Shown here: one piece after another, positions 38,169 to 43,614 of the stretch
How the letters are laid out: the number at the start of each line of letters is the position of its first letter
Position numbering within the stretch: the stretch's first letter is position 1
Origin: an uncultured Planctomycetaceae bacterium
Lineage (GTDB): Bacteria; Planctomycetota; Planctomycetia; Planctomycetales; Planctomycetaceae
Direction of reading: 5' to 3'
NCBI GenBank assembly: GCA_937916515.1
Contig: CALFSX010000038.1
Span: 62,001 to 126,000 of the forward strand
DNA length: 64,000 nt
Notes under the pieces: generated by a model
What the model was told of the DNA's origin: nothing
The model's database searches: none
Seen by the model: only the letters and a program-made list of their open reading frames with translations
Position numbers and translations under genes: made by a program

Positions 38169-38585
38169 TTAAGCTTCGCCTGCAGATTCATCTTCGGGAT
38201 TGACGTCCGATTCCAACATCACTTCGTCGGATTCTTCATCTTCTGCGGGAAGCACTTCCCTTAGGATTTTGGAGGCCTCAGCAGATTTTTGAACTCCGCT
38301 GTCGATTTGGAAACGCAATTCCGGCGTGTATCTGGTTTTAACACGGTCGGCCACTTTTGACTGAATATATCCGCGAGCGGAATTCAGTCCGTGAAGTGTC
38401 AACGCAGCTTCTTTTTCTGTGCCCATGACAGAAATTCGCACTTTTGCGTAACGAAGATCCGGGCTGACTTCTGCTCCCAGAACCGTCACATTTTTAATGC
38501 GAGGGTCCCGAAGTTCCAGCAGAATTGTTGTGCTTACAACTTCGCGAATCACCGAGGCAACTCGGGCTGTTCGACGTGATGACAT
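38169..38585 (-). CDS. rbfA: Ribosome-binding factor A
   Basis: A late 30S maturation factor with a KH-like fold, 138 residues. Seen: RTARVASVIREVVSTTILLEL at the start, DPRIKNVTVLGAEVSPDLRYAKVRISV as the central strands, and the C-terminal RYTPELRFQIDSGVQKSAEA block. The last ~25 residues are an acidic tail beyond the usual domain. Start ATG 38585 is supported by a strong Shine-Dalgarno sequence (GGAGG, 6 bases upstream). It follows infB after 96 bases, the classical nusA-infB-rbfA order. Confidence 0.95.
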   Translation of the reverse strand: MSSRRTARVASVIREVVSTTILLELRDPRIKNVTVLGAEVSPDLRYAKVRISVMGTEKEAALTLHGLNSARGYIQSKVADRVKTRYTPELRFQIDSGVQKSAEASKILREVLPAEDEESDEVMLESDVNPEDESAGEA

Positions 38586-38681: not shown

Positions 38682-41537
38682 TCAGGAGAACGTTCTCTGA
38701 ATTTCGTCGATTCGGAATGCCTCCAACAGGTCTCCGTCTTTTACATCGTTAAATCCGTCCAGACGGATACCGCATTCCATGCCTTCACGGACTTCCTTCG
38801 CATCGTCTTTTTCGCGTTTCAAAGACCCAATACGATAGTCATTCAGGACTGTGTTATCACGGATGACGTGAACGCGATTGTCGCGAGCAATTGTGCCGTT
38901 CAAAACACGACAACCAGCGATGGTTCCGAAACGACTGATGGTGAACGTTCGCAAAACAATCGCTCGACCCGTGGCCACTTCGACACGTTCTGGACGCAAC
39001 ATTCCTTCCAGTGACTGACGAATCTGTTCCGTTACTTCATAGATGATGTTGTATCGGCGAACGTCGACGCCTTCGGCTTCAGCCAGATGTTGAGCTCGAT
39101 CTTCTGCAATGACGTGGAAGGCAATGATGATGGCCTTCGCCGCACTTGCAAGATAGACGTCGCTCTCGTTAACTCCGCCCACGCCTTCGTGGATGATGGA
39201 AACTTTTACTTCCGGATGAGAGAACTTTCCAAGCTCGCCGCGAATCGCTTCCAGCGAACCAGGAGTGTCCGCTTTCAGAATCAATGGCAATTCCTGAACG
39301 CCTTCGCCAGCGCGAGCGGCATTCAGGATGTCATCCAGAGTAAGTGGCTTGCCCTTGCGAGACAGTGACGCTTCTCGTCCTTCGTGTTGCCGACTTTCTG
39401 CAACCTGTCGAGCTTCGTCGATATCCTTCATCACAAAGAAGTGAACACCAGCGGTTGGGACTTCGTCAAGGCCCGCCACTTTGACGGGAGTTGAAGGCCC
39501 GGCTTCTTTGACGGCCTGCCCCTTATCGTTGTACATCGCTCTGATTCGTCCATAGCTGGTACCACACAACACGTCGTCGCCAACGCGAAGTGTGCCTTTC
39601 TGGACAATCATCCATGCAATTACGCCGCGACCCTCGTCTCTAAACGCTTCCAGACAAACGCCCAGTGCATTTCGATCAGGATTCGCACGGTATTCCTGCA
39701 GTTCAGCCGTAAGCTGAATCGTTTCCAGCAGGTTGTCCAGGCCCATTCCGGTTTCACCGGACGTTCGCACAACTTCGTACTCTCCGCCCCATTCGGCAGG
39801 AAGCAGCTCGTGTTGAGCCAATTGCTGCAGAATTCGTTGTTCGTCAACGTCCGGCAGGTCCATCTTATTCAACGCAATCACGATCGGAACACCGGCGTTC
39901 TTTGCGTGGCTGATACATTCGACGGTTTGAGGCATAACGCCGTCGTCCGCTGCAATGACCAAAACGATGATGTCGGTCACGTTTGCACCACGAGCTCGCA
40001 TTTCGCCGAAGGCTGCGTGGCCCGGCGTGTCGACGAACGTCAGGTTCAGACCTTCGTTTTCTACCTGGTAAGCAGCGATATGTTGCGTAATTCCGCCTGC
40101 TTCACCCGACGCCACATGCGCGTTTCTAAGCTTATCGACAAGCGTGGTCTTACCATGGTCGACGTGCCCAAGGATTGTCACGATTGGAGGACGCCATGCC
40201 AGATCTTCATCTTCGTCCTCGTGGTCGAGAGATTCAAGAAGCTCGGTTTCGATGTCTCGACCGCGTTTAATTTCCAGGTCAACGCCAAGTTCCATGGCGA
40301 CTTCCAACGCATCTGACTCAGCCAGTTCGTCGTTGATCGTTACCATTTTACCAGCTTTGAAGAAGTAGCCCATGATGGACTTCGCTGGTCGGCCAATTGC
40401 TTCCGACAGATTACGCACAGTAATCGGGAATTCAATCTGAGCCGTTGTCTTCAGATCGACAGCCGGTCCTTTGCGTTTGCGACGCAGCTTCTTCTGCTGA
40501 CGTTGCTCTTCACGAGCTCGTCGAAGGTCTTCCAGCAGCGAACCCTTGCGAGCGCCGGGGCGCTTCTTGGCTCCACCCTGCATGGCTCCGTCATGTTCTG
40601 CCTTGGCCTGCTTAAGTTGTTTAAGCTGATCTGCCAGCGGGCTGCTTTTGTCAACGATCTGCTCCAAAGAGATGTCAGGCTTCATCGCCTTCTCATCTGC
40701 CTTCTTTGGTTTCGCCTTAATGACAGGCGGCTGATACATTGGCGGTGCGGCTACCAGCGGTCGCCCCATTGGGCCCTTGCGTGGTGCTGGTTCGCGTTCT
40801 TTTTCTTTTGGAGCTGGATTTGTGTCTGCCGCCTGTTCGCGATCCTTAATGGATCCAATCGGCTTCATTTCCCGCGGCGCTGAACGCTGCATACGGTTCA
40901 TCGGTGAAGATGATTTTCGGGGAGCTGATTCAACTAACTGAGCCGCAGGTTCGGCTGGGGTAACTTTTGCTGCTTCGATCACCGCTTCGACTGTTTCTTC
41001 TGCTACTTCAACTTCTGCTTGTGGCTCTTCTTTGGGCTCAATTGTCGCGGGCGACTTCTCGCTCGTTTTGGCGACTGGCTCAGCAACTTCTAATTCCGGA
41101 GCAACATCAGCTGCTTCTGACTCGGCTTCAACGGCCTGCTCTGGAGCTTCTACTTCCGCAGCAACTTCGACTACGGTTTTGACTTCCACAGGTTCAGCTT
41201 CAACCTGCTCTTCTTTCTCCGGCTCTGGCAATTCTTCGGCGGGAGGCTCAGCCTGGACGGGAGTTTCTTCGCGGGAAACTTTCGGTGGCAGGGTTCGGAT
41301 GTCGCGAACTTTGCCCGCCTTGACGTCTCGAACGGGCGCAAGTGGCTCCTGCTGTTTTGCAGGGGCATCCGCCTTTCCATCGAGTCCCTTGATATACGTT
41401 ACGATCTGGTCGCGTTCTTCCGGCGTAATTGTCGCCAGCGCGTTACGGAGCTTGACGCCTGCGTCATCACAGAGTCCAAGCAAAACCTTGCTGTCGAGGC
41501 CCAGTTCCCTGGCCAAAGCAAAGATACGAATCTTCAA
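38682..41537 (-). CDS. infB: Translation initiation factor IF-2
   Basis: The GTPase that places initiator tRNA on the 30S subunit, 951 residues with the start chosen here. The N-terminal IF2_N helix reads [20 protein letters not shown] ~330-residue Pro/Glu/Ala/Lys-rich linker follows. A second IF2_N-like region lies near 370-420, then the G domain with [14 protein letters not shown] (G1), [12 protein letters not shown] (G3) and NKMDLPD (G4), and the beta-barrel and C-terminal domains. The frame reaches 41567, but TTG 41537 begins exactly at the family's K-I-R-I-F start and has AAGGGG about 8 bases upstream, so TTG is preferred to the in-frame ACG/ATG region further up. Confidence 0.95.
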
Positions 41538-41899
41538 GACAACTACCCCTTCGACGCGGCGCGTCAACCTTCTTCTGGTTAACGCGGTCGATTAGGACCG
41601 ATCGTGTCTGTGGGACACTTCGGTACATTTCAACGTGCTTCGCAAATTTTAGAAACGAGTGGAATTTTATGGTTCATGATTTCAGCCATTCGCCAGTGAT
41701 GACGAACTTCATTCAGTTATTGATTTGGAAGGCAGTCTCCAGGGAATGGTGATAATCACAAACTCGTTTGAGGCAAGGCCTCTGTAATCAGATAACAGAC
41801 CGCTTTCGGTCTGTTGCAAATCCGATTTTGATCAAAAACAACCAGCTATTGCCAGAAGGCGTTCAAGAAGCAGGAAATACCGGCCTGTTGAACCACGCT
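41538..41899 (-). other. nusA-infB spacer with a hairpin
   Basis: A gap of 362 bases without a gene, unusually long inside the nusA-infB pair. On either strand AACAGACCG and CGGTCTGTT pair (41794-41802 with 41807-41815; 9-bp stem, 4-base loop) about 85 bases after the nusA stop. It has no proper U-tract, so it may be an mRNA processing or stability element rather than a terminator. Confidence 0.5.
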
Positions 41900-43273
41900 C
41901 TAGTCAGCCTTTTCTGTCTCCTGATCTTCTACAGTATCTACGTGTTCAATCTCTTCTGTTGGTTCCTGCAATTCCGTTGTCGCTGCGTCTTCTGTTTCTT
42001 CAACAGCAGCCCCGGCAGGTCCTTCTGCATCGGCCTCAACCTCTGTTGCTGGCGGTGCCTTCGGCTTTGGAGCAGGTGGAGGCGGCGGATTCAATTTTCG
42101 AGCGATTTCTTCCTGTTCGATTCGTTCACTTTCAACGTCAGCAAAAGCGATGACTTCATCGACGTCTTCCTGACTCATGCCACTCATTTCCATGAGTTCA
42201 TCAGGTTCAATGACCGACAGGTCGTCAAATGTGAAGAAGCCTTGTGAGACAAGGTTTTCGACAAGTTCGGCAGGCATTTTCGGAACAACGCTGAACGCTT
42301 CGATGGAAATATCCAGTTGCTCGTCCAACGATTCCTGAGTCATCACGTTGATGTCCCAGCCCACAAGCTTTGATGCAAGGCGAACGTTTTGGCCTCGGCG
42401 TCCGATTGCCAAAGACAGCTGATCTTCGCGGACCAGAACAATCACTTTGCCCAGCATCGGACAAAGAATAACGTCCTCAGCTTCCGCGGGTTGCAGTGCA
42501 TTGGGGACAAGAATTTGAAGGCTGTCATTCCAACGCACGATATCAATGCGTTCGCCGTTCAGTTCTTCAACAATGCCTCGAATTCGCGCACCGCGAACTC
42601 CGACGCATGCCCCAACACAGTCAACTGTGCTGTCAAATGAAGATACGGCAACCTTTGAGCGGTGTCCGGCTTCACGAGCGATCGATCGAGTTTCGATCAC
42701 GTGGTCGTTGACTTCAGGGATCTCAACCTCGAACAGGCGTCGAACGAAGTCGGCATGAGTTCGTGATAAGATGACTCGAACTCTTGATCCGGCTTTCTTC
42801 ACGTCCATCACAATCGCTCGGACACGATCACCGACTCGGTAGCTCTCTTTATTGATCTGTTCACTTCGTGGGAGAATCGCTTCAACCTTGCCCAGGTTGA
42901 CAATCACTGTGCCACGATCCACTCGAGTGACGGCTCCCGTCACAAGCTGGCTTTTCAGGTCCAAAAATTCTTCGTAAAGGGAGTCACGCTCCGCTTCTCG
43001 AATTCGCTGAATCATCACCTGCTTGGCGGTTTGAGCTGAGATTCGTCCCAGCAGGTCGCCAATCAGTTCTGGTTCCAGCATTGCGCCATCGCAAGTCAAA
43101 GACGGCTCACCCGTGTCGCGGTCGATGCGCACCTTGAGCACTTCCTCTTCCGAGAAGTGTTTTCGAGCAGCTGAAAGAATAGCTTGTTCGATACCCTCGA
43201 AGACGATGTCTTTGTCAATTGCCTTGTCGCGATGAATCGCATCAACAATGCGTTTGATCTCGTCGCCGTTCAT
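41900..43273 (-). CDS. nusA: Transcription termination/antitermination factor NusA
   Basis: An RNA polymerase-associated elongation factor, 457 residues. The N-terminal domain reads [30 protein letters not shown]. The S1 domain lies around residues 125-200 ([23 protein letters not shown]). KH1 and KH2 follow, with [22 protein letters not shown] and [16 protein letters not shown]. One helical repeat is seen ([20 protein letters not shown]). The end is a Pro- and Glu-rich acidic tail of ~70 residues. The frame extends to 43354, but ATG 43273 matches the family start and lies after a terminator hairpin. rimP is not upstream; a 69-residue protein gene is. Confidence 0.96.
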
Positions 43274-43303
43274 ATCCCGAAACCGTTTCGTATTGACCTT
43301 ATA

Positions 43304-43361
43304 ATAAAAAAAGTGGGAACGAGTCCCACTTTTCAACGCTGATTTCGAAGCCAAAATCAGC
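43304..43361 (-). terminator. Two hairpins and U-tract in the nusA leader (attenuator candidate)
   Basis: Reading toward nusA, a first hairpin pairs GCTGATTT with AAATCAGC (43361-43354 with 43345-43338). A second pairs AAAAGTGGGA with TCCCACTTTT (43333-43324 with 43318-43309) and runs into seven T in total. The U-tract ends about 31 bases before the nusA ATG. This has the form of an intrinsic terminator. The 12-bp palindrome CCTGAATTCAGG lies just upstream at 43387-43398. Confidence 0.75.
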
Positions 43362-43614
43362 AGGCATTCTTCTGATATCTGCCAAGCCTGAATTCAGGTT
43401 AAGCAAACAGCAGAAGGATGGGTGTCTCTTAACGCTTATGCATGATCAAATCCTGTATGCCAAGTTGGTCTTACACTCGGCAGTTCGGAGTCGCGAGCTA
43501 AAGCTACTAAACGATGAAGTTCATCTTTCAGCAGAAGCTGGGACGATATCTGCGGTTTCGCACGCTGTCAAGCATCAGCAAGGCGTTACGTCCCATTCAC
43601 TGAGATTCATTGCG

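Follow-up and report, generated by a model that had tools for sequence, protein, structure and literature searches.

A conserved ultra-short reading frame and a putative ribosome-linked attenuator in the nusA-infB-rbfA leader of a planctomycete family

The nusA-infB-rbfA leader in the 64-kb planctomycete window (the whole stretch of DNA analyzed here) contains a Shine-Dalgarno (SD) sequence and a mini-ORF of only four sense codons upstream of an intrinsic terminator. We regard it as reasonably probable that the leader works as a ribosome-linked attenuator of transcription, with termination before nusA changing according to whether the mini-ORF is occupied. An attenuator ahead of nusA-infB-rbfA had been proposed in an initial annotation, and this much stood: the terminator lies in the leader, and a promoter was found only upstream of it. 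What the annotation missed was the SD with its ultra-short ORF, approximately 115 nt ahead of the terminator. Judged from the sequence, this is the unusual part of the leader and the part that brings translation in. The elements in the window are arranged in the order promoter, SD and mini-ORF, two hairpins, intrinsic terminator and nusA, followed on the minus strand by infB and then rbfA, and the order of the leader is kept across the family (Table 1).

Table 1. Features of the nusA leader and operon in the window
Feature	Coordinates	Strand	Basis and remarks
Promoter TTGACA-17-TATCGT	43543..43571	minus	Consensus scan and conserved pattern in relatives
SD (AGGA) of the mini-ORF	43451..43454	minus	Sequence
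Mini-ORF, ATG CAT AAG CGT TAA (MHKR-stop)	43429..43443	minus	Sequence; equivalent frame in 86/89 leaders
Long hairpin P1, with palindrome CCTGAATTCAGG at the tip, following the mini-ORF	43365..43420 (56 nt)	minus	Folding
Hairpin P2, directly before the terminator	43338..43361	minus	Folding
Intrinsic terminator, stem AAAAGTGGGA/TCCCACTTTT, T7	43306..43334	minus	Scan, folding, family conservation
nusA	41900..43273	minus	ORF, ATG at 43273; Pfam NusA_N, S1, KH_5
infB (IF2)	38682..41567	minus	ORF and Pfam IF-2; the TTG start as listed may not be the true one
rbfA	38169..38585	minus	Pfam RBFA

An ultra-short reading frame conserved upstream of nusA

The planctomycete of the window belongs to the same genus-level group as the Fuerstiella records, and a nusA homolog was detected in 55 of 58 genomes. 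The 130 upstream regions were reduced to 89 distinct leaders with a recognized terminator: 18 were set aside (17 of other families, L035–L051, and L033 of the family), nine gave no terminator with a motif-based pattern (L017, L024, L101, L103, L104, L114, L118, L125 and L126) and 14 were duplicates. An SD followed by ATG, zero to three more codons and a stop, the ATG lying 175 to 80 nt before the terminator, was present in 86 of the 89, a count that depends on an SD list of seven 4-mers chosen by us and that does not represent independent events because the leaders have common ancestry. Dinucleotide shuffles gave 3.4/89 and the antisense strand 0/89, and in the window such frames have a background of about 0.02 per 95 nt, whichever strand is read. 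In 42/89 leaders the ATG is immediately followed by the stop, compared with 0.8 expected; the codon after an SD-preceded ATG in this stretch of the leader is TAG in 20 cases, TGA in 14, TAA in nine and TGG in one. ATG-stop sites numbered 63 in total, 43 of them with their own SD.

The three leaders without a counted mini-ORF are L030, where the frame has five sense codons; L034, with ATGTAA but no counted SD; and L072, where GTG replaces ATG and the same frame is retained. Eight of the nine regions in which the motif-based pattern recognized no terminator were rechecked (all except L104), and an SD start-stop was found within 700 nt in seven; L024 fails the SD rule. When counted by genus, with up to five sense codons permitted, the mini-ORF is present in 24 of the 27 family genera sampled. 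Two of the remaining genera have an ATG-stop in place without a counted SD, and in the third (L033) no terminator was found. The distance from the ATG to the terminator is held at a median of 115 nt (IQR 108–128, range 88–172) in a thinned set of 53 leaders that have few 7-mers in common. A sharp G/A-rich peak is located at −12 to −9 from the mini-ORF ATG (87 leaders); the presence of an SD within −16 to −4 was a selection criterion, whereas its exact position was not.

The sense codons of the mini-ORF are variable. Close relatives have ATGCACAGTATGTGA, ATGTACAGTATGTGA, ATGAGTAGTATGTAA, ATGCTGAACATGTGA or ATGCATTAA, and other genera often have ATG directly followed by TAA, TAG or TGA, together with short frames such as ATGTTTTAA, ATGATATAG and ATGTTAGCGTGA. 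The start-stop form is not universal, because the window's own frame has sense codons after the ATG. Within one clade the sense codons differ and the start and stop are constant (ATGATGTAG, ATGAGATAG, ATGATATAG), and in many of the longer mini-ORFs the final codon before the stop is again ATG. Variable sense codons combined with a constant SD, start and early stop look like the pattern expected from selection for translating a minimal frame. Conserved one-codon frames are missed by ORF callers that apply a minimum length.

Terminator, promoter and alternative readings of the leader

A terminator hairpin with seven T just upstream of nusA was part of the initial annotation, and both are present: the stem-loop at 43334–43308 has 11 pairs and a loop of 5, the seven T occupy 43312–43306, and the U-run ends 32 nt before the nusA ATG. 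The consensus scan is not significant alone (two terminator-like sites compared with 1.4 expected in 1.3 kb); we take the terminator to be real because it is conserved in the family and unique in the genome, with a single occurrence of the exact pattern in 8.33 Mb. Conservation of the hairpin in related genomes is borne out by a motif-free search of the 700 nt before nusA, where the best terminator was a GTGGG or GCGGG hairpin in 91 of 97 distinct family regions (85 and six, respectively) and another in six. In four of these six (L025, L118, L122 and L125) the different hairpin is about 350 nt before nusA. L033, a member of the family, has no recognizable terminator, including in the motif-free search. 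GTGGG stands opposite CCCGC in 63/89 leaders and opposite CCCAC in 21/89, counts that are biased because the pattern selecting the 89 leaders requires GTGGG-like arms; the motif-free count of 97 regions repeats the result without the motif. GTGGG opposite CCCGC gives a G-U pair, so the sequence of the 5′ arm is conserved beyond pairing.

The constancy of the 5′ arm is consistent with a protein such as NusA recognizing it, an idea put forward for the rimP-leader (PMC2965389), and NusA feedback at the terminator is plausible from the sequence. The leader could be a plain NusA feedback attenuator, in which abundant NusA would recognize the GTGGG terminator and raise termination, and the mini-ORF, with no control over the terminator, would only shelter the leader (from Rho or RNases) or park a ribosome. 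Besides the 5′ arm, this reading is supported by the rimP-leader, which as described has a conserved GGG...CCC terminator, no visible antiterminator and a proposed role for NusA, and by E. coli NusA, which represses its own operon (cited in PMC2965389); no antiterminator was found in the leaders studied here either. However, it offers no account of the SD and minimal frame kept at a set distance in 86/89 leaders, and we consider it rather unlikely.

The rimP-leader itself is a conserved GGGc...gCCC terminator before rimP-nusA-infB, described in its general form without an antiterminator (Naville and Gautheret, 2010; PMC2965389). Both leaders have an intrinsic terminator with a G-rich 5′ arm and a C-rich 3′ arm, in the leader of an operon with nusA and infB, and no visible antiterminator. 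Unlike the rimP-leader, the leader here precedes nusA, has the motif GTGGGA...TCCC/GCCC and carries an SD and ultra-short ORF upstream. The GGG...CCC of the stem motif is kept, whereas the window has GGGA...TCCC in place of the inner c/g. The first gene here is not rimP, as it is behind the rimP-leader, and RimP (PF02576) was found in 0/20 planctomycete genomes searched, the window's own included; a control search matched 10/14 named genomes. The section of PMC2965389 on the rimP-leader describes no uORF, and planctomycetes are unmentioned in the paper's text. Leader termination before the same operon has also been reported for S. agalactiae (PMC4448216). Rfam searches at gathering score gave 0 matches in the window and 0 in 10 related loci; below gathering score, five weak, unrelated, chance-level matches were seen in the leader (E up to 5).

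Transcription would start near 43536. The consensus scan for the window promoter is weak alone (one found compared with 0.9 expected by chance in 1.3 kb), but the pattern TTGACN-16to18-TANNNT was found upstream of the mini-ORF in 84/88 leaders, with 0.7 expected; one of the 89 was left out because its upstream sequence is too short. The same pattern was found between the terminator and nusA in 0/88 leaders (0.4 expected), so the sequences give no sign of the promoter between hairpin and nusA that the initial annotation had held to be incompatible with attenuation. With the promoter pattern upstream of the terminator and none behind it, nusA transcripts should therefore pass through the terminator, as they would in an attenuator.

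A strong promoter pattern and a terminator that bracket a structured RNA would also suit a free small RNA of about 230 nt, for example one binding or counting initiating ribosomes, with nusA expressed by leakage only. We consider this improbable: the leader element precedes nusA in every locus examined, no second copy of the leader or of the terminator pattern was found in the window's own genome, the promoter pattern is absent behind the terminator in the 88 leaders, and the primary sequence of the leader is strongly divergent between clades. An FHA-domain gene and a 69-aa ORF are located 5′ of the leader on the same strand, but it is very improbable that the terminator is simply theirs, with nusA transcribed from a separate promoter, given the conserved promoter pattern between those genes and the terminator, its absence behind the terminator and the closeness of the U-run to the nusA ATG in the window.

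The 69-aa ORF (43824–43612, minus strand), which separates the FHA gene from the nusA promoter, has no Pfam match; in close relatives a similar C-terminal sequence seems to stand before the promoter. A small inverted repeat, CGAAAC-GGTTTCG (43291–43279, minus strand), lies directly 5′ of the nusA ATG, occurs in a subset of the leaders of the genus and could fold over the nusA ribosome binding site. An in-frame TTG at 43354, which would extend nusA through the terminator, was rejected as an improbable start because the ATG-start query matches relatives from residue 1 in 35/55 genomes, and because the remaining 20/55 match within residues 2–5 and the upstream leader sequence diverges. No tRNA or tmRNA was found in the 64-kb window.

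Leader folding and the proposed role of the ribosome

The 168-nt leader has a predicted folding energy of −55.5 kcal/mol compared with a shuffle mean of −37.85 (z −4.46, 0/200 shuffles as good). In the thinned set of 53 leaders, the interval between mini-ORF and terminator is structured (mean z −2.20, 68% below −1.5), whereas the mini-ORF zone is unstructured (mean z −0.28). Openness in the zone from SD to AUG slightly exceeds the leader mean, by 0.05 (n = 87, unthinned; p 0.0008). The second hairpin annotated before the terminator was recovered as P2, and the annotated 12-bp palindrome (CCTGAATTCAGG, 43387–43398) is the tip of the longer hairpin P1. As a conserved element the palindrome was ruled out, since it is absent from the other seven clade A leaders.

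Direct pairing tests gave no excess, and a classical antiterminator is therefore not claimed. Duplexes between the leader and the terminator 5′ arm were no stronger than in shuffles (mean z +0.07, 87 leaders), and a local antiterminator test gave a mean z of +0.05, with the best duplex near the mini-ORF in 25/53 leaders compared with 20.9 expected (P 0.14). Across all 87 leaders the effect of blocking the ribosome footprint had no uniform direction, with 11 up and 20 down (p 0.09). RNAalifold predicts a conserved hairpin around the mini-ORF of the M(D/G)K(M/I)-stop leaders, and in this group blocking the footprint lowered the freedom of the terminator arm in 12/18 leaders and raised it in 1/18. 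The sequences themselves establish how the leader is arranged, that the arrangement is conserved, and that SD, start and early stop persist. Translation of the mini-ORF and its effect on termination are inferred and, because no family-wide antiterminator was found, so are the coupling of the mini-ORF to the terminator, its direction and its signal.

In the ribosome-linked attenuator that we favor, RNA polymerase would start at the upstream promoter and expose the SD and the ultra-short ORF, on which a ribosome would initiate, whether the frame has four sense codons, as in the window, or is start-stop only, as in many relatives. In start-stop forms, AUG would be in the P site and the stop codon in the A site until release factor acts. 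The presence of the ribosome while polymerase crosses the next ~140 nt would alter leader folding or polymerase coupling, and polymerase would accordingly stop more or less often at the GTGGG terminator ahead of nusA, where NusA may act as well. Since the mini-ORF is almost all initiation and termination, such a device would report the capacity for translation initiation, the process served by the operon products IF2 and RbfA. The conservation of the mini-ORF, its held distance, the structured interval, the upstream-only promoter, the folding response of the M(D/G)K(M/I)-stop leaders and the precedent of vmlR (see below) suggest an attenuator of this kind. Counted against it are the negative search for a family-wide antiterminator, the non-uniform effect of ribosome block on folding, the four sense codons of the window's own frame, the leader without a terminator (L033) and common ancestry.

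More tentatively, it is possible that the start-stop frame is a minimal gauge of initiation (and release), with AUG-stop occupancy setting termination before nusA-infB-rbfA. The quantity measured by the cell would then be initiation, almost or entirely free of elongation, and it would be used to set IF2, RbfA and NusA. What leader-peptide attenuators usually sense is elongation, through charged tRNA, or stalling caused by antibiotics. If the proposal is true, a leader frame without any elongation would serve as a natural sensor of translation initiation in many species, and transcription termination would be tied to initiation in the core operon for NusA, IF2 and RbfA. The balance of nusA-infB against ribosome supply becomes a directly testable question in planctomycetes.

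Relation to described short frames and to other families

The AUG-stop of plant NIP5;1 and the bar minigenes of phage lambda are one- or two-codon ORFs that act through ribosome dwell or tRNA drop-off; unlike the frames described here, they are associated with eukaryotic mRNA decay or phage toxicity, and no transcription terminator is involved. A tested precedent in logic is vmlR, where a three-codon uORF controls an intrinsic terminator, mutants of the SD or start codon abolish induction, and the effect depends on initiating ribosomes (PMC9226507). As described there, vmlR-type leaders also have an SD, a few-codon uORF in or before the first hairpin, further hairpins and an intrinsic terminator before the main gene, and the hairpin-embedded mini-ORF of the M(D/G)K(M/I)-stop leaders resembles vmlR SL-1 (PMC9226507). 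They differ in that vmlR is an antibiotic resistance gene induced by antibiotic, whereas the leaders here precede a core operon, have frames reduced down to a bare start-stop and have no demonstrated antiterminator. Start-stop sites with a possible regulatory role, in which the stop follows directly or almost directly after AUG, have been reported in E. coli and C. jejuni; the 18 listed for C. jejuni are putative, internal and out-of-frame, and are not described in that account as leader attenuators (PMC11955535). In E. coli, termination-reinitiation can take place at AUGUGA-type sites (PMC9841429), and this could by analogy apply to the TGA mini-ORFs but not to the TAA or TAG forms. Among the matches listed from the open-access literature, no bacterial leader attenuator and no nusA leader was described with a start-stop or minimal uORF. 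The terminator of the planctomycete leader resembles the rimP-leader, and the logic of the leader resembles vmlR-type short-uORF attenuators.

Outside the family, an SD mini-ORF was found within 500 nt in 2/17 leaders read (L039 and L045), from 22 genomes with a match. Three genera of another planctomycete family (L038, L039 and L041) keep a GTGGG-type terminator, and in L039 a candidate start-stop lies 140 nt before the terminator. The terminator may be older than the mini-ORF, because that family keeps the terminator and the mini-ORF occurs in so few leaders outside the family. In L038, L039 and L041 the AAGTGGGA-type terminator is located 200–355 nt before nusA, and a CCACT shortly before it in L038 and L039, noted by eye only, could pair with the terminator 5′ arm. 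In a third family (L035, L036 and L040), the nusA leaders have a different terminator or none and, again by eye only, have in common an ATGGT(A/G)TCG stretch that could start another leader frame, which in L035 reads MVS-stop.
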